Positions 8,208-57,098 of a stretch of 64,000 bases of DNA are shown here, one piece after another (the stretch's first letter is position 1; each line of letters opens with the position of its first letter). Origin of the DNA: Bacteroidales bacterium. GTDB taxonomy: Bacteria > Bacteroidota > Bacteroidia > Bacteroidales > UBA932. Location: positions 22,777 to 86,776 of the forward strand of contig JAKSKN010000010.1 of the NCBI GenBank assembly GCA_024401695.1, given 5' to 3'. The notes under the pieces were generated by a model. That model had not been told where the DNA came from and ran no database searches. It saw nothing but the letters and a program-made list of their open reading frames with translations. The position numbers and the translations under genes were made by a program.

Positions 8208-9056
8208 CTATTCTGATATCTTAAGAAATCTGTCCCTGCCGAAAAAATCCTTGATGATTGAAGTATTTTTATATCCTGAATCCTCAAAGACCCGCGCAGT
8301 CTGCAGCCCCAACGACTCGTTTATCTCCACAAAGCCGATGCCCCCGGCCTTCAGGAAACGCTTCATCCAACCGGCCAGAGCCCTGTAGAAGACCAGCGGG
8401 TCATCATCGGGCACGAAAAGAGCAAGATGCGGCTCATAGTCCAATACATTCTTTCTCATCAAAGCTTTCTCCTTGTCCATCACATAAGGCGGATTGGACA
8501 CGATGACATCAAACAGGCCTTCATCGAATCCCTCCCCGCACTGCAGGACATCAGCCTTGAGAAATCTTACATCACCTTCTGCGAATTGCCCTCCTGCCAC
8601 CGACAGGGCAGCATCAGAAATGTCCACTCCAAGCACCTCCGCTTCAGGCACCTCCTTCGCCACAGTCCAGGCAATGCAGCCCGAACCGGTACACAGGTCC
8701 AGCACCCGAACCTTGCGGTCAAGCTCCAGGCAATGGCATACGACCTCCTTTACAAGCTGTTCTGTCTCCGGACGGGGCACAAGCACAGCCGGAGACACAT
8801 TGAAACGAAGCCCGTAAAACTCGGCGAAACCGAGCACATATTGAACCGGTTCGCCTTCTGAAAGCCGCCGCACATCATCTTCCAGCTCAGGCAAGAACCC
8901 CGGAGGCACCTCCGTCTCCGGCTCTATGACGTGAGTATAGCTCTTGACCCCGAGTTTCTCCTCACAGAGCATTAAAACCATACCCCTCGCCTCCGGCGAA
9001 GGGTATAGAGCTTCCAATGCCGCGGTGCTCCGACGTATGAAATCGGAGAGCAGCAC
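8208..9056 (-). CDS. prmC: Release factor glutamine methyltransferase PrmC (HemK)
   Basis: The protein has 282 residues. The N-terminal helical domain is followed by a Rossmann methyltransferase with VLDLCTGSGCIAW (SAM site, near residue 120) and the family-defining NPPY in VSNPPYVMD (near 189). PrmC methylates the GGQ glutamine of RF1/RF2. The start is a GTG at 9056 that overlaps the TAG stop of ddl by one base. It is the last gene of the PBP1A-ddl-prmC operon. Confidence 0.92.
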   Translation of the reverse strand: MLLSDFIRRSTAALEALYPSPEARGMVLMLCEEKLGVKSYTHVIEPETEVPPGFLPELEDDVRRLSEGEPVQYVLGFAEFYGLRFNVSPAVLVPRPETEQLVKEVVCHCLELDRKVRVLDLCTGSGCIAWTVAKEVPEAEVLGVDISDAALSVAGGQFAEGDVRFLKADVLQCGEGFDEGLFDVIVSNPPYVMDKEKALMRKNVLDYEPHLALFVPDDDPLVFYRALAGWMKRFLKAGGIGFVEINESLGLQTARVFEDSGYKNTSIIKDFFGRDRFLKISE

Positions 9057-10072
9057 TATGAGTTTTCGATGACTGTCGTAAGGAAATCGGTAATGTCAAG
9101 ACCCGCTGTCTTGACCATCTTCGGGATCAGAGAAGCACTGGTCATACCAGGGATGGTGTTCACCTCAAGGAAATAAAGGCCATCCTCGCACCAGATGAAG
9201 TCCATACGTACAACCCCCTTGCAGCCAAGGCTGGAGTAAAGCTCGCAAGTGGTCTTCTGGACAAGGTCGCGGACTTCATCAGGGACCTGTGCAGGGCATA
9301 TCTCCTGACTATGGCCGTTGTACTTCGCATCGTAGTCGAAGTACTCGTTTTCGGTCACGATCTCTATGATAGGAAGCGCCTTCGGGCCCTTGCCGTCAAA
9401 ATAGACACCGCAGGTGAGTTCACGCCCGCTGACGCCCTGCTCGACAAGTACGGTAGGGCACTCTGCATATGCATATTCGACAGCCTCTGCCAGATCTTCC
9501 TTTTTGGTGACACGGGTGACACCGAAGCTCGAACCGCCCTGGGTAGGCTTTACGAATACGGGGAATTGAAGATCTCTGCTGACCTTCTCAACGAAGGCAC
9601 CGACGTCCTCTCCCTGACGGATAAAGGCGTCCGGGGCACATTTGACTGCGTCACGACCCTTGATATAGCACTTACAGGCAAATTTGTCGAATGCTATGGT
9701 GCTCACATAGAAATTACAGGAACTGTACGGCACGTGCAGCATATCGAGGTAGCCCTGGAGCTGGCCATTCTCTCCCGGGATGCCGTGCTGGACGATATAT
9801 GCGAAGTCGAACTTGACTTTCTCTCCGAGAACGGCGACTGAAAAGTCAGATTTGTCGATTTCCGGACGAGCCTCCTCCGGGAAGGTGACTCTCATCGCAT
9901 TCTGCTTCTTGCAGGCAACGAGGGACCACTTGCCAAAACGTGCGAAAATTTCGTACACGTCGTACTGGTTGTCATCTATGCGCGACGCAACGAATTCGCC
10001 GCTGCGGCAGGACACCTCCCATTCTGAAGAGTCACTGCCATAAATGACCGCAATTTTCTTGTATTTGCCCAT
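9056..10072 (-). CDS. ddl: D-alanine--D-alanine ligase
   Basis: The protein has 338 residues with start at 10072 (MGKYKKIAVIYGSDSSEWEV). The ATP-grasp layout is clear: an N-terminal Rossmann half, FVKPTQGGSSFGVTRV for nucleotide and substrate binding near 165-180, MDFIWCEDGLYFLEVNTIPGMT with the Mg-binding E and N near the C-terminus, and SLIPKM after it. It makes the D-Ala-D-Ala dipeptide of peptidoglycan in the cytoplasm. One base separates it from the upstream PBP1A gene, a sensible functional pairing. Confidence 0.93.
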   Translation of the reverse strand: MGKYKKIAVIYGSDSSEWEVSCRSGEFVASRIDDNQYDVYEIFARFGKWSLVACKKQNAMRVTFPEEARPEIDKSDFSVAVLGEKVKFDFAYIVQHGIPGENGQLQGYLDMLHVPYSSCNFYVSTIAFDKFACKCYIKGRDAVKCAPDAFIRQGEDVGAFVEKVSRDLQFPVFVKPTQGGSSFGVTRVTKKEDLAEAVEYAYAECPTVLVEQGVSGRELTCGVYFDGKGPKALPIIEIVTENEYFDYDAKYNGHSQEICPAQVPDEVRDLVQKTTCELYSSLGCKGVVRMDFIWCEDGLYFLEVNTIPGMTSASLIPKMVKTAGLDITDFLTTVIENS

Positions 10073-47361: not shown

Positions 47362-47369
47362 TAACTTTG
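47362..47369 (+). promoter_or_regulatory. -7 box for the MarR gene
   Basis: TAACTTTG lies 29 nt before the ATG at 47399. It fits TAnnTTTG. Confidence 0.5.
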
Positions 47370-47398
47370 TGAAAGTACGATACTATTACTATCCCGGA

Positions 47399-47857
47399 AT
47401 GCTACTGACAAAAGAAATCGCCGTTTATCTCAATCTCGTGGCCTGCAGGTTCAAGCAGTACACCGCAAATCTGCTCAAGAAGAACAACATCGGACTCACG
47501 CCGGAGCAGTTTCTCACCATAGACATCCTCTGGAATCAGGGGCCTATGCCGCAGTTCCGCATAGCGGAGGCAATGCAGAAAGACAAGAACTCGGTGACCA
47601 ACCTTGTGGACGCCCTTGAAAAGAAGCAGCTCGTGGAACGCATCCGTGACAAGAATGACAGACGGTCCAACCTGGTCACGCTCACGCCGAGGGCTGAAGC
47701 AATGAAGAACGGGACAAAGCAGTTCGGCATCTCAATGCTTGACGACCTTCTCAAGGGAATAGACGAAAAAGAGCTGCAATCTTTCCTTGCAACTCTTAAA
47801 AAGATCGATCAGGCGATGGCCGACGGCAGGCTGTCAGAAGAGAGCTCTGACCTTTGA
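47399..47857 (+). CDS. MarR family transcriptional regulator
   Basis: The protein has 152 residues with start at 47399 (MLLTKEIAVYLNLVACRF); a GTG at 47369 lies inside the promoter box. The winged helix is FRIAEAMQKDKNSVTNLVDALEKKQLVERIRDKNDRRSNLVTL split over about residues 50-95, with the DxRs wing motif DKNDRRS. It converges on, and overlaps by 24 bp, the last gene of the sulfonolipid operon. Palindromes at that operon's promoter are of MarR type, so it is a candidate regulator. Confidence 0.85.
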   Translation: MLLTKEIAVYLNLVACRFKQYTANLLKKNNIGLTPEQFLTIDILWNQGPMPQFRIAEAMQKDKNSVTNLVDALEKKQLVERIRDKNDRRSNLVTLTPRAEAMKNGTKQFGISMLDDLLKGIDEKELQSFLATLKKIDQAMADGRLSEESSDL

Positions 47858-49117
47858 TATGACCTCACCGGCCGGCAGGTCCGGGCTCAATTCCAGGTCA
47901 CTTCCCTTGAAGACATAACCTTTGCTCATCGCAGCCAGCGTCCCGCCTCCCGTACAGTTGAGCATTATCATATCCTCCTTCCCTACCTTGCCTTCCTCCA
48001 CGGCCTTTGCAAGGGATGCGACGGCAACGCAGGCGGCTGGAAGCAGTTCGTAACCTTCGAGATTGCGGAACTGCATCATCCAATACATTATGTCGTTGTT
48101 GTCGGCGAGGAACACGTCTCCGCCGCTTGCCTTCAGCACATCATACAGACCTCCGGCAATGCTATAAGGCGGTTTCCTGTTTGAAAGGACTTTGGCCAGG
48201 ATGATTTCCGCCTGGCGGCGTCCGGCATCCGGGTCAAGCGGCAGCAATTCCCTTGAATCCGCCTTCCAGGAATCATACATCAGAGTGAACGGAGCGTTCT
48301 GCCCGACGAAAACCTTCATCCTGTTCGCGCCGAAGCGTCCATCCTCGGCAAGCCTGCAGGCATTCTCCCAGGCCGCGATCGCACCTGTGCCCGAACCGAC
48401 CGCCTGGAAGTATGCATCGGGAATCACACCCGTCTTCTCAACGAAGCTCAGGAGAGTAGTGCCCATACCGTCCCTGCGGGCGATATTCTTGGCACCGCCC
48501 TCAAGAATGAACCCCGGATCCTCGGCAAGCTTCTCGCCTATGCTGATGGCATCATAATAGTCGCATCCGTGCGGCACGGTCACGAGCTTGACGCATTTGT
48601 CAAGCTTCCTTCTGAACCAGAGGTCGTGCAGGTTGTCGTTCGGCACGCAGATGACCACAGGTATCTTGTTGTCCGAACATACCTGGGCAAAGGCCCTGGC
48701 CGTGTTTCCGGCAGACTGGACCACAAGTATCCTTTTCTCGTCGGCATCAAGCCTGGCAAGGACTGAATAGGCCTCGGTTTCCTTGAAGGAACAGGTCCTG
48801 AACTTTGCACCTATCCTGGGATTCCAGCCGGAGAATGTGATGTACAGGTTGTCGAGTCCGAGGAATTTCCCCATTCCCTTTGCCTTGTAGGTCACAGGAG
48901 CGCAGGACTTCTTCAGAAGCCTTTTGACCGGCATCCACTCGGCGTATCTGTATATGCCGTCATATTCCGGATGCGGAGTGAAGGCCCTGTTCTCATAAAC
49001 GGCCCTGACAAGGGACGGCGACTTGCTCTCGGGATCGGCAAGCGTCCAGCCTCTGTCCTCGAATTCGTGACCATCGCAGACATTCTGCAGATGGTATTTT
49101 GTCTTGATGAATCTCAT
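47834..49117 (-). CDS. Cysteate synthase (PLP-dependent, threonine-synthase fold; SulA-like)
   Basis: The protein has 427 residues. PLP fold-type II features: a Lys-containing stretch near GAKFRTCSFKETEA, AGNTARAFAQVC near 141, and glycine loops VGSGTGAIAAWENA near 244 and NCTGGGTLAAMSKG near 393. The overall pattern (CDGHEFEDRGW start, WNPRIGAKFRTC) matches cysteate synthase, which turns O-phosphoserine and sulfite into cysteate. Cysteate is the head group of capnine sulfonolipids. The acyltransferase and reductase of the same pathway lie in this operon. Threonine synthase is the main alternative. Confidence 0.82.
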   Translation of the reverse strand: MRFIKTKYHLQNVCDGHEFEDRGWTLADPESKSPSLVRAVYENRAFTPHPEYDGIYRYAEWMPVKRLLKKSCAPVTYKAKGMGKFLGLDNLYITFSGWNPRIGAKFRTCSFKETEAYSVLARLDADEKRILVVQSAGNTARAFAQVCSDNKIPVVICVPNDNLHDLWFRRKLDKCVKLVTVPHGCDYYDAISIGEKLAEDPGFILEGGAKNIARRDGMGTTLLSFVEKTGVIPDAYFQAVGSGTGAIAAWENACRLAEDGRFGANRMKVFVGQNAPFTLMYDSWKADSRELLPLDPDAGRRQAEIILAKVLSNRKPPYSIAGGLYDVLKASGGDVFLADNNDIMYWMMQFRNLEGYELLPAACVAVASLAKAVEEGKVGKEDMIMLNCTGGGTLAAMSKGYVFKGSDLELSPDLPAGEVISKVRALF

Positions 49118-49121
49118 ATTG

Positions 49122-50855
49122 CTACATTATTATCTGTTCGTCTATTATCTGTGCCAGGTCCTTGACCGGACGGTCTGCGTATCTGGCGAAAGTCGCAAGG
49201 CAGAGAGGGCAGGCCGTCGCAATCGCATCGGCCTTGCTCGCATACAGGTTCTCAAGCGATGCCCTGGTGATCTTCTCCCTGTGCTCGAAATCCAGCGACA
49301 GCGAACCGAGCGAACCGCCGCAGCACACGCTCTCCGCACGGTTCTTCGGAGCCTCCGCTATCGCGGCAGCCTTACCGATAAGTGCGCGCGGCGAATCGTA
49401 GATACCACACCCACGCCCCAGCTCACAAGGATCGTGATATACATAACAGGTATCTCCTTTCTCAAGCGTGAACAACCCCTTATCCATCATCTTGCGGAAA
49501 TATTCCGAGTAGAAAGCGACCTTGGTGCTGCCCAGGTCATAGCTTTCGGAAAATTCCCTGTAACAGATAGGGCAGCTGACAAGAAGGGTGTGCGCACCGC
49601 TTTTCCTGATGATTTCCTCGTTTTTCTTCCTGAGCGCGGCAGCTTCTTTCAGACGGCCTGCAGTGTGAAGCGGCCGGCCGCAGCAAAGGCCGCCGTCGCG
49701 GTCCATCCATTCGTACCTCACGCCGGATTTCCGGAGGATGGACTCCACGCTTCGCCCTATGTTGGGAGTAAGCTGGCTCATACATCCTGAGAAGTACAGA
49801 ATCTTCCCCGACGCCCAGTATGTGTCATATCCATCGGAGGATATCCGGGAGAAATCCGGGGTGATCCTGTATTTTCTGGCCGCCCTGGCCAGTATCCTCA
49901 GTTTAGGACCGTCAACTCCCACCTGGCATACCGACGTACATTTGCCGCACAGCATACATTTGTCGCTGATCTCCCTGACCCTCGGTTCATTGCCGCGGCG
50001 GAGCTGGCGGGTCAGGTACACGGTGCTGTTTTTCAGATTTGCCGTATCGGCGTTCATCGGGCAGGCATCTATGCAGACGCCGCAGTTCGGGCAGCTGTCC
50101 GCCTGAACGCGCGCCATCCCCTTGTGCGGTCGCGTTATCCCCACGCCGGCGTTGCGCATCGTGATGAGAAGCATCTCCGCAGGGATATGCAGATAGCGCG
50201 TAAACGGCAGCACGGCCATGAAGGTGCACAGGGCGATGGAATATGCCCACCACGGGGCGACGGTGAGGTTGCCCGCCCTGGCGCACTGCTCGGCAACAAG
50301 GCGCAGAGGGAAAATCGCCCAAAGGGAGTACAGGCCCAGGAGGTTGAACAGGGTCGGCCGCGCCGTGCGCTTCATTCCGAACAGGCGTGACCAGAAGCGC
50401 TTGACCACAGCCAGGGCGATTCCCGCGATGACGAGCAGCAGGAAGGCATCCATCGCCTTCGAGATGACGGTATGCTGCCCGCCTTCCACGAAGTAGTCAA
50501 AAAAGATCGGATAATAGAATGTAGCGAGCTTCCCGGGGAAATACACCAGAACCTCCAGATGGCCAAGAAGTATTATCATAAACCATCCGAAAGCGATGCT
50601 GGAATGCATTAATCCCAGGATACGGTTGCGCTTCCAGAGCTTGACGTGTATAAGGCAGTCGAGCACTATGTCCACCGCATTCTTGATTATCAGATTGGGA
50701 TGGATGAGCGACAGGAGCCATTTTTTCCGGTCGGCCTTGTCCAGCTGCCCCACGACGACCGCCGCCTTGACGGCACATACGGCAAGGACGAACGCCATCC
50801 CTGCGAGGAACGGCAGCACGAACGGGTGGAATCCTGTAGCAAATCTCTCAGTCAT
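49122..50855 (-). CDS. Membrane heterodisulfide-reductase-like protein (HdrE-HdrD fusion type)
   Basis: The protein has 577 residues. The first 240 contain about six membrane segments of NarI/HdrE cytochrome-b type. Two 4Fe-4S motifs follow (CPNCGVCIDACP near 265, CMLCGKCTSVCQ near 307). Two CCG domains come last (GCMSQLTPNIGRS with LCCGRPLHTAG, and DPCELGRGCGIYDSPR with SVCCGGSLGS). Family members pass electrons between quinones and a CCG-bound 4Fe-4S site that handles thiols or disulfides. It sits between the soluble Hdr-like genes and cysteate synthase, 4 nt from the latter. Confidence 0.85.
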   Translation of the reverse strand: MTERFATGFHPFVLPFLAGMAFVLAVCAVKAAVVVGQLDKADRKKWLLSLIHPNLIIKNAVDIVLDCLIHVKLWKRNRILGLMHSSIAFGWFMIILLGHLEVLVYFPGKLATFYYPIFFDYFVEGGQHTVISKAMDAFLLLVIAGIALAVVKRFWSRLFGMKRTARPTLFNLLGLYSLWAIFPLRLVAEQCARAGNLTVAPWWAYSIALCTFMAVLPFTRYLHIPAEMLLITMRNAGVGITRPHKGMARVQADSCPNCGVCIDACPMNADTANLKNSTVYLTRQLRRGNEPRVREISDKCMLCGKCTSVCQVGVDGPKLRILARAARKYRITPDFSRISSDGYDTYWASGKILYFSGCMSQLTPNIGRSVESILRKSGVRYEWMDRDGGLCCGRPLHTAGRLKEAAALRKKNEEIIRKSGAHTLLVSCPICYREFSESYDLGSTKVAFYSEYFRKMMDKGLFTLEKGDTCYVYHDPCELGRGCGIYDSPRALIGKAAAIAEAPKNRAESVCCGGSLGSLSLDFEHREKITRASLENLYASKADAIATACPLCLATFARYADRPVKDLAQIIDEQIIM

Positions 50856-51165
50856 ATATCTTGCAGATCGAAAGGATCAGGTTCCTTGTGTTGATGCCAC
50901 GCGGGCAGACCATTGTGCACTTGCCACAAAGCATACAGCACTGCAGCATCTCACCGGCACTCCGGCCGCGTTGCAATGCGAGAAGGACCTTGCGGACACT
51001 CATCCCCGACAGCCTCCCCGCCGGGCAGCTTGCACTGCAGCTGCCGCAACCTATGCATATCCCCGCACCCGGCTCAAGCCTGCACAGCTGCTCGAAGCGG
51101 AGGTCATCCACCTTTCCAAGGTCCATGGTGGAGCTTTTGCTCAATGAAAATCCGAAATCCATCAT
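50848..51165 (-). CDS. HdrC-like 4Fe-4S protein
   Basis: The protein has 105 residues and carries two clusters: CIGCGSCSASCPAGR near 37-51 and CCMLCGKCTMVCPRG near 76-90. It is an electron relay between the HdrA-like flavoprotein (4-bp overlap upstream) and the membrane subunit (8-bp overlap downstream). Confidence 0.85.
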   Translation of the reverse strand: MMDFGFSLSKSSTMDLGKVDDLRFEQLCRLEPGAGICIGCGSCSASCPAGRLSGMSVRKVLLALQRGRSAGEMLQCCMLCGKCTMVCPRGINTRNLILSICKIYD

Positions 51166-52175
51166 TCCCCGCTCAGATATGTGTGTATGGACAAGGCAGC
51201 GCTGCGAGCCTCCGCGATGGTCTCCGGGACGGTCTTCGGGCCTGTGCAGGAACCGGCGAAGAAGATTCCGGGGCGGTTGGATTCCACGACGGAATATTCA
51301 TTGTCAACGCTCCTGAGGAAGCCGTCGCTGTCCGTTTCAAGCCCTGCCATTTCAGACAGTTCCCGTATGCTGTCGTTCCGGACAATGCCGGACATCAGGA
51401 CCAGAAGGTCAAGCCTGACCTTGAGAGGCTTTCCGGACAGGGTGTCCTCGGCTTTTACCTGCAGACCCCCGTCAATGGTCTCGCCGACCTCCGACACACG
51501 TCCGCGTATGAACTGTATGCCGTAATCCCTCTGCGCATTGACATAGAAATCCTCATACTTCTTCCCGAAGAGGCGGAGGTCCATATAGAAGCAATAGACC
51601 TTTGCGTATGGGAAGCGTTCCTTGATCTCAATGGCCTGCTTGATCGCCGTGGCACAGCAGACCTTGGAGCACTGGCCGTTGCAGGCCTTGAGGTCCCTGG
51701 ACCCGACGCAGTGCACGAAACCCACCGTCCCGACATTCTCCGGCACACGGGGATCCTCCTTTCCCGAGAACCACGCCTCGAGGTCCGAGTTCGTGATGAC
51801 GTGGTCATACACGCCATAACCGTATTCTTCTTTCCTTGTGGCGTCGAACAGACGGAATCCCGTGGAGACCAGGACGGCCGAAGCATTCACCACGATGCCG
51901 TTGCTGAGCTTGAGGCTGTATCCGTCGGCAAGGCGGTTGAACGATATGACCTTGGTCCCGAGAAAGGCATTGGCTCCCCGCACATCCGCACGCAGCCTGT
52001 CTATGATATCCTTTGCCGAAGACATATCGGGAAAGAGCTTGTGCCACGATGCGACGTGCCCCCCCAGTTCCTTTGATGCCTCAACCAGGATCGGCGTGTG
52101 GCCTAGTGCGAGAAGCGCCTTCGCCGCCTCCATTCCGGCGATTCCGCCGCCTATTATTACGATATTCCCATTCAT
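51162..52175 (-). CDS. HdrA/QmoA-like FAD protein
   Basis: The protein has 337 residues, close to QmoA and much shorter than methanogen HdrA. The FAD loop is IVIIGGGIAGMEAAKALLA at the N-terminus. A cluster-binding CVGSRDLKACNGQCSKVCC stretch lies near 172-190, and GIFFAGSCTGPKTVPETIAE near 305-325 completes the flavin fold. It is the likely electron-bifurcating or electron-transfer hub of the complex. Confidence 0.88.
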   Translation of the reverse strand: MNGNIVIIGGGIAGMEAAKALLALGHTPILVEASKELGGHVASWHKLFPDMSSAKDIIDRLRADVRGANAFLGTKVISFNRLADGYSLKLSNGIVVNASAVLVSTGFRLFDATRKEEYGYGVYDHVITNSDLEAWFSGKEDPRVPENVGTVGFVHCVGSRDLKACNGQCSKVCCATAIKQAIEIKERFPYAKVYCFYMDLRLFGKKYEDFYVNAQRDYGIQFIRGRVSEVGETIDGGLQVKAEDTLSGKPLKVRLDLLVLMSGIVRNDSIRELSEMAGLETDSDGFLRSVDNEYSVVESNRPGIFFAGSCTGPKTVPETIAEARSAALSIHTYLSGE

Positions 52176-52176
52176 T

Positions 52177-53247
52177 CTAGAAACACTTTATTGAAGTCGG
52201 AAGTTCCGGCCGCATAATGTCTTCGCGGTTCAGTCCAAGGTATTTTGCCGCCGGGTCATATTCCACTCCCATCTTGTCCAGAAGGGGCTCCACGGCCACC
52301 TGATGCAGCTGCAGGCCAAGGTCCCAGGGGTCATAGCCAAGTACAAGCCCGGCGAGTTCCTCATATGTAAGGACCGGTATCCCGAAGCCGTTCCCGCCAT
52401 ACGTCCTTCCCGTCTGCTCCGCGATGACATACTGCCACCTGTCAAGGAAATACGGACATCCGGGACAGTTCGTTATGATTGCGTCAGGATGATATGGCTC
52501 CATCGACTCGAATTTCTTGTGTGTATTGGACAGGCTGTATCCGCGGTTCGCCTTGACGTGGTACTGGCGGAAACCGTATCCGCAGCAATGGCGGCGCTCA
52601 GGATAATCTATGACCTGCCCGCCCCAGCTTTCCACCATTCCGGCCAGCACGTACGGATATTCAGCACCGCCGACACCTTTCGAAGGGAACATCTTGGCAT
52701 AGTGGCAACCTATGTGCTCAACTATCTTCAGAGGCTCTCCGGTGACGGCATTGACGAGCTTGTGCTTCGCCCGTGCCGCTATTTCATTGCGCCAATGATA
52801 GATCAGGTCGCTTGAATGGGCCAGATATTTCGGCTTGTTGAACTCCCTGCGGCAGGCTTTCCAGAGATCCTCACGTATCCTTGCCTCAAGTTCCGGGAAC
52901 TCGCGCCAGGTCTCGAGGATCTCGGCGTAGTTGCCGAACGACGTTATGCAGCTCGGACAGTAATTCTCATATCCCGCCTCGGTCATAAGCGCGAACTGCC
53001 GCGCCACGATGGTCATCACGGTCTCCTGGGGGATTGTGTCGCAGTGATATGCGATGCCACCGCAGGTGGTATGATGAGGAGTCTCGTAAATGTCTTTTCC
53101 GAGGACGTTCCGGGTTATCTCCGTAAACATCCGCTCGCTTGCCGGAAAGAAATTCTGCCTTATGCAGCTGCGTACATAGTACCAGTTGTCATCGGGAATA
53201 TCCTTCTGATATTCACTCCATATCCTTTGCTTTCCTTCGTAGATCAT
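52177..53247 (-). CDS. HdrB-like CCG-domain protein
   Basis: The protein has 356 residues. One CCG domain is intact (IGCHYAKMFPSKGVGG near 185, ERRHCCGYGFRQ near 225, TNCPGCPYFLDRW near 262). An N-terminal counterpart has HTTCGGIAYHC near 58-68 and YCPSCITSFG near 96. These cysteines hold the noncubane or 4Fe-4S site that cleaves disulfides in HdrB. It follows the HdrC-like gene after a 34-nt gap containing a palindrome. Confidence 0.85.
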   Translation of the reverse strand: MIYEGKQRIWSEYQKDIPDDNWYYVRSCIRQNFFPASERMFTEITRNVLGKDIYETPHHTTCGGIAYHCDTIPQETVMTIVARQFALMTEAGYENYCPSCITSFGNYAEILETWREFPELEARIREDLWKACRREFNKPKYLAHSSDLIYHWRNEIAARAKHKLVNAVTGEPLKIVEHIGCHYAKMFPSKGVGGAEYPYVLAGMVESWGGQVIDYPERRHCCGYGFRQYHVKANRGYSLSNTHKKFESMEPYHPDAIITNCPGCPYFLDRWQYVIAEQTGRTYGGNGFGIPVLTYEELAGLVLGYDPWDLGLQLHQVAVEPLLDKMGVEYDPAAKYLGLNREDIMRPELPTSIKCF

Positions 53248-53258
53248 ATTTTTCGTAC

Positions 53259-53279
53259 AGACGCGAGTGACTCGCGTCT
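53259..53279. promoter_or_regulatory. Perfect palindrome in the gap between hdrC-like and hdrB-like genes
   Basis: AGACGCGAGT at 53259-53268 is the exact reverse complement of 53270-53279, centred on a single G. It lies in the only gap longer than 4 nt within the nine-gene operon. It could be an mRNA processing or stability hairpin, or a protein-binding site. Confidence 0.55.
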
Positions 53280-53281
53280 AT

Positions 53282-53977
53282 TCAATTGAAATGTTTGTCG
53301 CTGCAGTACTCGAAGGCGTTCCTTTCGTATTCCTGCATCGACTGTCCCATCTCCCCGGCCTTCTTTTCAGAGTATTCCTCCACGAGGCGTATCCTTTCGG
53401 TGCCGCCCGTCACGTCAAAGATGGCCTTGAGCTCGTCGAGGGACTCCTGCGGAATCTTCCTGAGGACCCCGGGGCCTTCGCCCATATAGTTCGCCCCCTG
53501 GCGTTCAAGGCTCTTCTCAAGATGCTCGGTGTGCCATTTCCAGACCGGTCCCGATTCCTTGTGGTCCTCCCATCTGAACGTCTCGGGATGGATGCAGTAC
53601 CCGTATTTCAGGATATTACCCGTCATAATGCGGGTGAGAGGAAGCATCTGGCGGCCCTTTTCAGACTCCGTGAAATATCCGAGACGCACGCTGAGGTCGC
53701 GCAGGGCCATTATCACCAGCCCCGGACCATTCCTGCGGGGGCAGCGGGTGACGCAGCTCATACATTCGCCGCAGTACCATATGGTCTCGGACTTCAGCAG
53801 TTCCTCTATCTTGTCGTCGTCCCTGGTCTGGACGGTATCGACTATCTTTCTGGGGTCATACCTGTAGAACTCGGCTGCGGGACACACGGCGGTGCAGGTC
53901 CCGCAATTGATGCAATTGTGGAAGCCCTCCCTGAAACGGTAGTCCTTGTTCAATTCGTCAAACAGATTCTTCATCAC
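53282..53977 (-). CDS. HdrC-like dicluster 4Fe-4S protein
   Basis: The protein has 231 residues. Two 4Fe-4S motifs are CINCGTCTAVCPAAE near 22-36 and CGECMSCVTRCPRRNG near 74-89. The remaining C-terminal half is polar and helical and is unlike plain HdrC. Its start overlaps the SDR stop by 4 bp. With the CCG proteins it would form an Hdr-like soluble module. Confidence 0.85.
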   Translation of the reverse strand: MMKNLFDELNKDYRFREGFHNCINCGTCTAVCPAAEFYRYDPRKIVDTVQTRDDDKIEELLKSETIWYCGECMSCVTRCPRRNGPGLVIMALRDLSVRLGYFTESEKGRQMLPLTRIMTGNILKYGYCIHPETFRWEDHKESGPVWKWHTEHLEKSLERQGANYMGEGPGVLRKIPQESLDELKAIFDVTGGTERIRLVEEYSEKKAGEMGQSMQEYERNAFEYCSDKHFN

Positions 53978-54759
53978 ATCGGTTTTATCCTTCTGGCAAG
54001 CACGGCGCAGAGCGCAGGGAAGAATCTCTTGATGTAAACCATCAGCAGCTCGCCCCTTCCCACCAGAACCTCACTCTTCCTTTTTCTGATGGCACGCACT
54101 ATCTTCTTTGCCGCCTTGTCGGCGGAAATGCCGCCATCCTGCCCCGGATCCATCACACCGTGCCTCTCACCGCCCTTGTCGAGAGCGTTCAGCGAGATGT
54201 TGGTGCGGACCCGCCCCGGGCAGACAAGGGTGACGGACACCCCCTTGTCGTGATACTCGGCACGAAGCGTCTCGAAGAAACCGTACAGCGCGTGCTTGGA
54301 TGCACTGTAGGCGCATCTGAAAGGGAATCCGAAGCGTCCGGCGATGGATGTCGTGACGGCGATTCTGCCGCCTCCGTTCGACACCATCATCGGCAGCACG
54401 GCCTCCGCCAGCGCCACGGGGGCGAAAAAATTAACCTCCAGGATCTTCCTCACCATCGGCATCGGCGTATCCTCCACCGAAGTGCGCTGGCTTATGCCGG
54501 CGTTGCAGTAGAGGATGTCTATTCCGCCGAAGGCGCTCCACGCCTCCCTGGCGAGAAGCCTGATGCCGTCAGGCTCGCTGAAGTCATACGGGAGCACCCG
54601 CACGTCCTTTGCGCCTTTGCCGCGGCAGCGGTCCGCCACGCTTTCCAGCTTCTGCCTTGACGACGAAGTCAGGATGAGCCGGCAGCCTTCCGCGGCATAC
54701 CTGTACGCGCAGGCCTCGCCTATGCCTGAGGATGCACCTGTAATCCAGACGGTATGCAT
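53974..54759 (-). CDS. Short-chain dehydrogenase, probable 3-dehydrocapnine reductase (SulC-like)
   Basis: The protein has 261 residues. SDR signatures: VWITGASSGIGEACAYRYA at the N-terminus, CNAGISQRTS near 89, TTSIAG with the catalytic Ser, and YSASKHALYGF with Tyr and Lys near 152-156. The C-terminus is hydrophobic (MVYIKRFFPALCAVLARRI), suggesting membrane association and a lipid substrate. It lies 1 nt after the oxoamine synthase gene, so I infer it reduces that enzyme's keto-lipid product, as 3-ketosphinganine reductase does. Confidence 0.78.
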   Translation of the reverse strand: MHTVWITGASSGIGEACAYRYAAEGCRLILTSSSRQKLESVADRCRGKGAKDVRVLPYDFSEPDGIRLLAREAWSAFGGIDILYCNAGISQRTSVEDTPMPMVRKILEVNFFAPVALAEAVLPMMVSNGGGRIAVTTSIAGRFGFPFRCAYSASKHALYGFFETLRAEYHDKGVSVTLVCPGRVRTNISLNALDKGGERHGVMDPGQDGGISADKAAKKIVRAIRKRKSEVLVGRGELLMVYIKRFFPALCAVLARRIKPM

Positions 54760-54760
54760 A

Positions 54761-56026
54761 TTATTTTATGAGGGCCTTGTCGGCCATTTCATTGTCGTAC
54801 TCGCCCCTGTCGAGACGCTCCTTGATGTCCTTGAAGGCCGCAAGCGTCCTGTCAACGTCCTCTATGCTGTGGGCTGCCGTCGAAATGATGCGGAAGATGA
54901 GCATTCCCGGAGGGATGACGGGATAGGTGACGATGGAGCAGAAGATGTGGTAGTTCTCACGCAGGTCAACGGCAATGTTCGTGGCCTGGTTGATGCCGCA
55001 TTTCAGATGGACAGGGGTGACGCAGGCCTCCGCCGGTCCGATCTCATATCCGAGCTCGCGGAAACCGTTCTGCAGGCGGCGGGTAACCTCCCACAGGCGG
55101 GCCCTGCGTTCGTCTCCTTCCGGGCTGTCAATGATCTCAAGCCTCTTTATGCAGCCCTCCACTATAGGCATAGGAAGGCTCTTGGCATACATCTGGGAGC
55201 GCATATTGTAGCGCAGATATGTGATGATGTCCTTTTCCGAAGCGACGAAACCTCCGATCGTCGCCATTGATTTTGCGTACGCGCCGATGTAGAGGTCAAC
55301 GCCGTCCATCACGCCAAAGTGCTCCGAAGTACCCCTGCCGTGAGGGCCCATCACGCCGAATCCGTGGGCGTCGTCAATCATGAAGCGGAAGTTGTATTTC
55401 TTCTTGAGAGCCACGATCTGGTCGAGGATGCCAAGGGCTCCCGTCATTCCGAAGACACCTTCGGTGATGACCAGGATGCCGCCGCCGCTCTGATTCGCCA
55501 CCTCGGTGGCCTTTGCAAGCACGCGGTCGCAGTCTTCTGCGTTGTTGTGCTTGAACTTGTATTTCTCGCCTATGTGCAGACGTATGCCGTCAAGAAGGCA
55601 GGCGTGGCACTCGGCATCATAGACGATCACGTCGTGGCGGGACACGAGGGAGTCGATCGTGGAGAGGATGCCCTGATAGCCGAAATTGAAAAGGAAGGCG
55701 GCCTCCTTCTTCTCAAAGGCTGCGAGCTGGCGCTCAAGCTTTTCGTGGAGGGCGGTCTGGCCTGTCATCATACGGCTTCCCATAGGGTAAGCCATTCCCC
55801 ACCGGGCTGCAGCTTCCGCGTCAACCTTCCTGATCTCGGGATGGTTTGCAAGTCCGAGGTAGTTGTTCAGGCTCCAGCAGAGAACGTCCTGCCCGTTGAA
55901 TCTCATATATGGGCCGAGCTCTCCCTCAAGTTTCGGGAATGCGAAATAGCCGTCGGCCTTTTCCCTGTACTGGCCGATCGGACCGCCTGAAGATTCGCGT
56001 ATCTTCTGAAAAATGTCCTTTTGCAT
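54761..56026 (-). CDS. Alpha-oxoamine synthase; probable cysteate C-fatty acyltransferase (SulB-like)
   Basis: The protein has 421 residues. It has the 2-amino-3-ketobutyrate/SPT/8-amino-7-oxononanoate synthase layout: NNYLGLANHPEI near 54, GSRMMTGQTALHEKLER near 83-99, MIDDAHGFGVMGPHGRGT near 215 and the PLP lysine in GAYAKSMATIGGF near 249. These enzymes condense acyl-CoA or acyl-ACP with an amino acid. The operon also encodes cysteate synthase, so cysteate is the expected partner, giving 3-ketocapnine. Serine palmitoyltransferase is the alternative. Confidence 0.82.
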   Translation of the reverse strand: MQKDIFQKIRESSGGPIGQYREKADGYFAFPKLEGELGPYMRFNGQDVLCWSLNNYLGLANHPEIRKVDAEAAARWGMAYPMGSRMMTGQTALHEKLERQLAAFEKKEAAFLFNFGYQGILSTIDSLVSRHDVIVYDAECHACLLDGIRLHIGEKYKFKHNNAEDCDRVLAKATEVANQSGGGILVITEGVFGMTGALGILDQIVALKKKYNFRFMIDDAHGFGVMGPHGRGTSEHFGVMDGVDLYIGAYAKSMATIGGFVASEKDIITYLRYNMRSQMYAKSLPMPIVEGCIKRLEIIDSPEGDERRARLWEVTRRLQNGFRELGYEIGPAEACVTPVHLKCGINQATNIAVDLRENYHIFCSIVTYPVIPPGMLIFRIISTAAHSIEDVDRTLAAFKDIKERLDRGEYDNEMADKALIK

Positions 56027-56030
56027 ATCG

Positions 56031-57098
56031 TTATTTTTGTCTTGATACCAGTCCCATCATTCTGAAGAGGAATTTCGGGAGCTGTTTGAGTTTGTCTCTC
56101 CTGTTCATATCTATGTAGAGTCCGAGCTTCCCTACGACGGGAACCTTGTGAGTCTCCACGAATTCTATCAGGGATCCGTCGGGGTCTTCTATGTACGTGA
56201 ATCGTCCTGACGCCTCCCCCATATCGAACTGCTCCCCGTTGGGGCAGCTGTCGACGGTGAACGGGCATCCCTTCGATGCACAGAACTCCCCGAGGGCATC
56301 CATCCCCGTCACGTCATAGCATATCTGGATGAATCCCGGGTCGCCCCAATAGCGCCCTTCGAATATCTTGCGCGGCTTGTGTTCCAAAGCCTGCACAAGC
56401 TCGATGACGTTGGTTCCCAGAAGGCCGGAGAAGGCACCCGCAGGGCTCCCGCTTCTTCCCAGAAGGACGCGGCGGTATTTTTCTTCAGAGCCCGGGAGGA
56501 TGGACCAGTCTCCGAAGTTGCCGGTCTCGTCGTAAATCACCCTGTCGTACCCGAGGACTTCCTGATAGAACTTCAGCGAAGCTTCCATATCGCTTACACC
56601 GACCATCGCCCCGGCGATTCCCCCGCAATATTTATGGTCATCGATGAATACGTCCTTCCTTTCGATGATCTGGAAAATGTTCCCGAAGAGGTCTTCAACA
56701 TAGAAGCACGGCACGCCGGACGGATCCTTCGAAACCGGCGAGCATTTGCCCCATCTGGCAGACAGCTCCCTGTGGAACGCTGCGACGTCGCGGCATTTCA
56801 CCTTGGCGGCGAAGACGCCGGTGTCGCCTGCCGATACCTTGAAAGAAGCGGGCTGGGGTGCCCTTTGCGAATATTGCCAGATCTCGAGTCCGCCGCCGCC
56901 CTGCAGGTTGACGGCGATGCACGCGTGACGTTTCTGCGCCTTGCCGCCCGTATAAGGGAGCATACGCTCTGCAACGGTGTCATCTTCAAGGATCTTGATG
57001 TCGAATCCGAACATCTTTATGTACCAGTCCCAGGATTGTCTGAAATCGACCGTCCCGACGCCGATCTGCTGGATGGCAGAGATAGTATATGCCTTCAT
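56031..57098 (-). CDS. Two-domain VOC (glyoxalase/4-hydroxyphenylpyruvate dioxygenase-like) protein
   Basis: The protein has 355 residues. Repeated beta-alpha-beta-beta-beta modules are visible at IQQIGVGTVDFRQSWDWYI, AGAMVGVSDMEASLKFYQEV and FIQICYDVTGMDALGEF, ending DPDGSLIEFVETHKV. Glutamates in GGLEIWQY, NVIELVQ and SLIEFVE and glutamines at the usual first-ligand position could bind a metal. It is the first gene of the sulfonolipid operon, 4 nt before the oxoamine synthase. Its reaction is unknown; oxidation or isomerisation of a lipid or sulfonate intermediate is possible. Confidence 0.78.
   Translation of the reverse strand: MKAYTISAIQQIGVGTVDFRQSWDWYIKMFGFDIKILEDDTVAERMLPYTGGKAQKRHACIAVNLQGGGGLEIWQYSQRAPQPASFKVSAGDTGVFAAKVKCRDVAAFHRELSARWGKCSPVSKDPSGVPCFYVEDLFGNIFQIIERKDVFIDDHKYCGGIAGAMVGVSDMEASLKFYQEVLGYDRVIYDETGNFGDWSILPGSEEKYRRVLLGRSGSPAGAFSGLLGTNVIELVQALEHKPRKIFEGRYWGDPGFIQICYDVTGMDALGEFCASKGCPFTVDSCPNGEQFDMGEASGRFTYIEDPDGSLIEFVETHKVPVVGKLGLYIDMNRRDKLKQLPKFLFRMMGLVSRQK

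Follow-up and report, generated by a model that had tools for sequence, protein, structure and literature searches.

The capnine pathway described for Alistipes and Chryseobacterium comprises Cys, CFAT/SulA and KCR, and the kcr genes of these organisms are reported to be scattered, away from cfat and Cys (PMC11211663). Among the relatives of heterodisulfide reductase (Hdr), two types of sHdr system have been published, C1B1AHC2B2 (I) and C1B1AHB3 with EtfAB (II) (PMC11582611), and LbpA is said to be inevitably associated with sHdr (PMC6067878). A heterodisulfide reductase system has also been reported in marine isolates that include makers of capnine lipids, with no link to these lipids drawn in the accessible part of that account (PMC11129491). 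A literature search found no paper combining sulfonolipid with heterodisulfide reductase, none combining sulfonolipid, sulfite and cysteate, and none combining Cryptobacteroides with sulfonolipid. A 64,000-nucleotide stretch of Bacteroidales DNA (GenBank accession number JAKSKN010000010.1, positions 22,777 to 86,776; here the window, meaning the whole stretch analysed) was found to carry a cysteate synthase gene (CysS), a CFAT orthologue and a short-chain dehydrogenase/reductase (SDR) gene, as in the capnine pathway, but here gathered in one operon with five hdr-like genes. Quite possibly, though by no means surely, this operon directs the synthesis of cysteate and from it a capnine-type sulfonolipid, the five Hdr-like proteins forming a membrane-anchored redox complex that supplies sulfite to CysS.

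The operon consists of nine minus-strand open reading frames arranged head to tail between 57098 and 47834; in order of transcription their junctions are 4, 1, -4, 34, 1, -4, -8 and 4 nt. The products, assigned with Pfam and NCBIfam, and the convergent neighbouring gene are:

56031..57098, minus strand, VOC protein of 355 aa, first gene; homologues adjoin lipid or hdr genes in loci L140, L141, L192, L285 and L288
54761..56026, minus strand, alpha-oxoamine synthase (AOS), predicted CFAT/SulA; pyridoxal-phosphate (PLP) lysine Lys252 and SulA-diagnostic Lys282
53974..54759, minus strand, SDR, putative 3-ketocapnine reductase; TGxxxGIG and YxxxK motifs
53282..53977, minus strand, HdrC1-like protein; two 4Fe-4S motifs, the eight motif Cys invariant in 30 of 30 aligned sequences
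52177..53247, minus strand, HdrB1-like protein; one complete CCG motif, the first CCG motif with three Cys (T/S-C replaces C-C)
51162..52175, minus strand, HdrA, short form of the sHdrA type; flavoprotein core, Cys156/169/173/174
50848..51165, minus strand, HdrC2-like small ferredoxin (HdrCs); two 4Fe-4S motifs
49122..50855, minus strand, HdrED; hydrophobic N-terminal region, invariant His70/84/223, Fer4 pair, two complete CCG motifs, best match EtfD
47834..49117, minus strand, cysteate synthase CysS (TIGR03844), last gene
47369..47857, plus strand, MarR regulator, convergent with CysS

Sulfonolipid enzymes and Hdr-like proteins

CysS scored 420 bits against TIGR03844 (curated cut-off 324.9) and 54 bits against the best threonine-synthase model, and its assignment as a threonine synthase was rejected on these scores. 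The AOS gave 560 bits against SulA of Alistipes finegoldii (7U7H), 539 bits against CFAT (28EH) and 220 bits against serine palmitoyltransferase. Entry 7U7H, which carries another molecule name, is presumably the SulA structure of the PMC9304779 study. In SulA, Lys281 is given as the residue distinguishing it from serine palmitoyltransferase, and Lys251 as the PLP lysine (PMC9304779). The corresponding pair in the AOS, Lys252 and Lys282, 30 residues apart, was present in all 11 aligned sequences, that of the window included. Together with the scores, the diagnostic lysine led to rejection of serine palmitoyltransferase, and by sequence the AOS is predicted to be a cysteate acyltransferase of the SulA/CFAT type. 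As this match is accompanied by a cysteate synthase above its cut-off, both diagnostic enzymes of capnine synthesis are present. The layout of the operon, including the 8-bp overlap and the 34-nt gap, and both enzyme assignments are as the preliminary description of this locus had them. The SDR displays only the usual motifs of its family and is a candidate 3-ketocapnine reductase; of the Chryseobacterium candidates with conserved active sites, 3 of 12 tested are reported to be active (PMC11211663).

A further gene was found beside CFAT in four genomes (L288:10950-12170, L287:7412-8641, L192:8622-9941 and L285:2351-3559). Its product, here designated CysS2, is a fold-II PLP enzyme scoring 149-184 bits as a threonine synthase (cut-off 303) and 108-120 bits as a cysteate synthase. 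The proteins from the four genomes are alike (419-571 bits where compared), and CysS2 is a candidate for a second class of cysteate synthase. Labilibaculum euxinus is reported to contain 24-33% capnine lipids and to encode a homologue of CapA that is only 32% identical (PMC12927429), which fits a divergent synthase if CapA is, as assumed, cysteate synthase. In genomes G221, G086 and G074, which have hdr and CFAT but neither type of synthase, a search around AOS (8.5, 7.5 and 4.2 kb) for a synthase gene matched neither CysS nor CysS2.

HdrA (337 aa) has only the core of the sHdrA type and aligned nearly end to end with 6TJR, which we take to be sHdrA, of Hyphomicrobium (194 bits, residues 5-330); methanogen HdrA gave a similar score, with the alignment mainly over about 230 residues. 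In the HdrB-like protein the second CCG motif is complete (Cys181/221/222/261/264). All 31 aligned sequences have three Cys (Cys28/62/100) in the first, where Cys62 is always preceded by T or S, and this T/S-C form also occurs in Picosynechococcus B1 and in an Acidithiobacillus HdrB-related protein encoded near a GcvH-type gene. HdrA reached 237 bits of an NCBIfam cut-off of 1100, and HdrB 126 bits of 450. A methanogen-type HdrABC was rejected on the short HdrA, these scores and the T/S-C in place of C-C.

The membrane part of HdrED was called from hydrophobicity. His70, His84, His223, the two 4Fe-4S motifs and both complete CCG motifs were invariant in 29 of 29 sequences. The best sequence match, confined to the CCG region, and the best Foldseek E-value were both to EtfD of Mycobacterium smegmatis. 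HdrED has in common with this Hdr-related membrane reductase (9OJN) a membrane domain, a 4Fe-4S pair and CCG domains; unlike EtfD, it has no Etf partner in the operon and is one subunit of a five-member Hdr set, and the whole-length superposition, on a structure model of medium confidence (pLDDT 66.9, pTM 0.43), was poor (TM 0.36).

The set resembles sHdr systems in its C1-B1-A order (different in G081), its short HdrA, its HdrC2/HdrB2-like output module and the first HdrB motif, shared with the Acidithiobacillus protein. It differs from them in that the operon lacks sHdrH, LbpA and EtfAB, the output module is fused to a membrane domain, and the complex shares its operon with a sulfite-consuming anabolic enzyme. 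Between HdrA and C2/B3 sHdrH is absent, the genes of HdrA and HdrCs overlapping there by 4 nt. A similar set was seen on a plasmid of Picosynechococcus PCC 7003 (L314:13242-18982), where hdr genes in the order C1-B1-A-C2-B2 encode C1, B1 and A with 49, 41 and 48% identity to the window proteins, and where, as in the window, no LbpA is annotated in the stretch. There, however, an SQR-like FAD oxidoreductase (83 bits, below cut-off) replaces the membrane protein HdrED, and no lipid genes are annotated nearby.

Occurrence and linkage of hdr and lipid genes

Two surveys, both sampled from larger groups, covered 295 genomes of the order Bacteroidales and 199 genomes of the window's family. HdrB was matched in 110 genomes of the order at E<=0.001, of which 92 were retained as hdr-positive, the weakest on a 126.7-bit fragment; in the family 93 genomes were matched and 91 retained, two weak matches being excluded. 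CFAT was scored at E<=1e-100 in the order (209 of 295 genomes) and at >=450 bits in the family (119 of 199). Order-wide, CysS was counted in 80 genomes above cut-off plus two fragments, CysS2 in 55 genomes within an arbitrary band of 84-145 bits for the best match, and CysD in 188 genomes above cut-off plus three partial or slightly under it. The co-occurrence tests ignore kinship and are not corrected for a tree; versions with one genome per family were also run.

CFAT was found in 86 of 92 hdr-positive genomes of the order against 123 of 203 hdr-negative ones (p=9e-10), and, with one genome per family, in 37 of 38 against 51 of 81 families (p=2.8e-5). Within the window's family the counts were 87 of 91 and 32 of 108. 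Four of the six hdr-positive genomes without CFAT are 76-82% complete; the other two, G022 and G227, are not explained by incompleteness. The converse does not hold, 123 CFAT-positive genomes of the order lacking hdr. Neither CysS nor CysS2 within its band was seen in 84 of the 209 CFAT-positive genomes, 43 of these being hdr-negative. The association of hdr with the lipid genes is strong; the chemistry that may underlie it is considered below.

For a sulfite-making complex one would expect hdr to be more frequent in genomes without sulfate activation. Among CFAT-positive genomes CysD was present in 53 of 86 with hdr and 98 of 123 without (p=0.005; p=0.012 with one per family). When only CFAT-positive genomes with CysS or CysS2 were compared, hdr occurred in 24 of 38 lacking CysD and 21 of 87 having it (p=4.5e-5), and in 11 of 16 and 8 of 36, respectively, with one genome per family (p=0.002).

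The identical nine-gene order was found in 19 of the 80 best named loci by HdrB match, out of at least 575 matched, and in two of 60 loci from other genomes of the family, taken by place from the 91 hdr-positive genomes; with this recurrence the arrangement is not due to chance. The closest named relatives are, by record titles, Bacteroidales metagenome assemblies, many of them recovered from faeces or rumen and some assigned to Candidatus Cacconaster and Cryptobacteroides. In the named set, 64 of the 70 loci whose contig reaches far enough have CysS directly behind HdrED, and 23 of 69 have AOS upstream. All five hdr genes are present in 56 of the 60 family loci, three of the other four being on short contigs; locus L199 has no visible HdrED. 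CysS follows HdrED directly in 39 family loci, lies 3.5-3.7 kb away in two and is missing in 12, with seven not judgeable. VOC-AOS-SDR is upstream of hdr in L140 and L141, and AOS-CysS2-SDR-VOC in L192.

Other families supplied 14 further hdr loci, 13 of them with all five hdr genes; in G001 (L297) HdrB and HdrA homologues stand alone, without the other three beside them. Lipid genes adjoin hdr in four of the 14, and none was present within the 9.4-10.5 kb taken in the other ten. The four arrangements are AOS-CysS2-HdrC-HdrB-HdrA-HdrCs-HdrED-SDR-VOC in G041 (family f41), AOS-CysS2-SDR-VOC-HdrC-HdrCs-HdrED-HdrB-HdrA in G081 (f81), AOS-CysS2-hdr in G108 (f108) and hdr-AOS in G141 (f27). All nine functions are therefore clustered in two further families, those of G041 and G081, in other gene orders and with CysS2 as the synthase. 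Among the places listed, at least 6 of the 86 hdr- and CFAT-positive genomes have AOS no more than 10 kb from hdr; leaving the window out, 5 of 85 remain (p=2.8e-4 against random placement).

Of the family's 62 hdr loci, 22 carry a homologue of the MarR regulator, as do 10 of the 80 best named loci; a MarR cluster occurs in 18 of the 62, mostly just upstream of HdrC1. Directly behind the hdr block of G108 lies an OsmC-family gene (L287:1847-2269). In G024 an HdrED gene is followed by a putative cystathionine/methionine gamma-lyase gene, judged by its first residues, with HdrA-like and HdrC-like pieces upstream (L291:303-2134 and 8474-9655). The HdrB match contains one in-frame stop in three family genomes (G440:C34, G462:C31 and G304:C60).

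Possible origin of the sulfite

Cysteate synthase, as known from the methanogen enzyme, requires sulfite, and with menaquinone as acceptor the oxidation of sulfide or sulfane sulfur to this product is close to thermoneutral at standard conditions. The production of sulfite from reduced sulfur fits the operon, since HdrA and HdrB of the sHdr type and an EtfD-like output module adjoin a sulfite-using enzyme. In such a scheme, protein- or thiol-bound sulfane sulfur, probably derived from cysteine, would dock at the HdrB1-like subunit and be oxidised stepwise to sulfite. The electrons would pass from HdrC1 to the HdrA flavin, the small HdrC, the Fe-S/CCG part of HdrED, its membrane domain and finally menaquinone, and the sulfite would be used at once by cysteate synthase together with O-phosphoserine. 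Which way the reaction runs, what carries the sulfur, the link to quinone and sulfite as the product are all presumed here; what the sequences show is the gene content and its conservation, the identity of CFAT and cysteate synthase, the co-occurrence and the conserved residues of the redox sites. No CysD match was found in the window genome (97% complete), so that the usual route to sulfite is not seen there, CysH and a single-subunit ATP sulfurylase not having been searched.

This last limit and a number of observations weigh against sulfite supply by the Hdr-like complex. Within CFAT-positive genomes of the order hdr showed no association with the TIGR03844 synthase (p=0.77), and a strict dependence of hdr on CysS was rejected; hdr lies beside CysS in just two of 80 CysS loci order-wide, both in the window's family, where 27 of 105 CysS-positive genomes have no hdr, and 41 genomes with hdr and CFAT have neither type of synthase. 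Across the whole set of 295 genomes, hdr showed no association with CysD (58 of 92 against 133 of 203, p=0.69). With the TIGR03844 synthase alone, the link between hdr and missing CysD gave p=0.015 by genome and p=0.14 with one per family, and CysD is present in 21 of the 45 hdr-positive genomes that have CFAT and a synthase. Within the CysS-positive genomes of the window's family CysD offered no telling contrast (4 of 78 with hdr, 3 of 27 without), and it is rare throughout that family (15 of 199 above cut-off). Both hdr and CysD are lacking from fourteen genomes that have CFAT and a synthase; therefore, other sources of sulfite exist. The poor superposition of HdrED on EtfD belongs here as well.

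The partner proteins of sHdr are a further difficulty. No LbpA was found in seven hdr-positive genomes, each having one full GCV_H protein, all Cys-free, which in the window genome is encoded between gcvT-like and gcvP-like genes; two further weak GCV_H matches (L306 and L307) were read as biotin-type carriers. TusA was found in one and a DrsE_2 protein in two of the seven (rhodanese was not searched), and neither in the window genome. In that genome all three sHdr partners, LbpA, TusA and DsrE3, are missing. Membership of the canonical sHdr systems was rejected on the missing sHdrH and, for the seven genomes checked, the missing LbpA and the rarity of TusA/DsrE3; the Hdr set is sHdr-like, yet no sHdr member. 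The preliminary description had suggested that the Hdr complex serves sulfonolipid synthesis, perhaps through sHdr-like sulfite supply. A link to the pathway is upheld by order-wide co-occurrence with CFAT and varied linkage, without specificity for TIGR03844-bearing genomes; sulfite supply is favoured by the type of HdrA, by the motif in HdrB and by hdr being enriched in synthase-positive genomes lacking CysD, and disfavoured by the missing or rare partner proteins. It had also considered that the Hdr set might usually lie elsewhere: outside the family it does mostly lie away from the lipid genes, yet nearly always in CFAT-positive genomes.

Other explanations of the same gene set were weighed. 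A disulfide-type reductase might split thiosulfate or S-sulfonates such as S-sulfocysteine into thiol or sulfide and sulfite for CysS; LbpA, TusA and DsrE3 would not be required, CCG sites are the reductase sites of methanogen Hdr, and HdrED has two complete ones. Such reductive release is nevertheless unlikely, the thiosulfate couple being very negative and difficult for menaquinol, and HdrA and HdrB most resembling oxidative sHdr proteins. We give similarly little credence to detoxification, in which surplus sulfide or sulfane sulfur is oxidised for redox balance and sulfonolipid is the sink for sulfite: a detoxification system has no need of CFAT, to which hdr is tied, and the sulfide-tolerant bacteria, Ancylomarina, Labilibaculum and Lutibacter among them, whose Hdr system was read as possibly serving this purpose, are reported to have shown no sulfide oxidation in culture (PMC11129491).

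The remaining two seem more improbable still. Electron exchange with the fatty-acyl or capnine moiety, and not with sulfur, would agree with the closeness of HdrED to EtfD, the membrane partner of Etf, and with hdr tracking CFAT and not CysS across the order; the operon, however, has neither EtfAB nor an acyl-CoA dehydrogenase, and in the named loci it is CysS that is mostly attached directly to hdr, AOS being upstream in a minority. A general electron-transfer complex of anaerobes could have come to share operon and lineages with CFAT by history alone, as the ten other-family loci with no lipid gene beside hdr and the lack of tree correction would allow. Linkage in five families (f1, f27, f41, f81 and f108) with different gene orders, and CFAT in all but one of the hdr-positive families, speak against it. 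Returning to oxidative supply of sulfite, its wider form is a possibility that we regard as rather doubtful: a third, anabolic class of sHdr-like complex, independent of LbpA, linked to menaquinone and widespread in Bacteroidales, which would turn cysteine sulfur into sulfite for cysteate and sulfonolipid in cells lacking sulfate assimilation.

Sulfonolipids figure prominently among the lipids of gut Bacteroidota, and none of the papers searched addresses how anaerobes lacking sulfate activation come by the sulfite for them. If the proposal is true, the substrate of the complex would be accessible by simple labelling, and an enzyme family known from sulfur oxidation would gain an anabolic branch. 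The complex may then explain how a cell seemingly unable to use sulfate obtains sulfite for its sulfonolipids.

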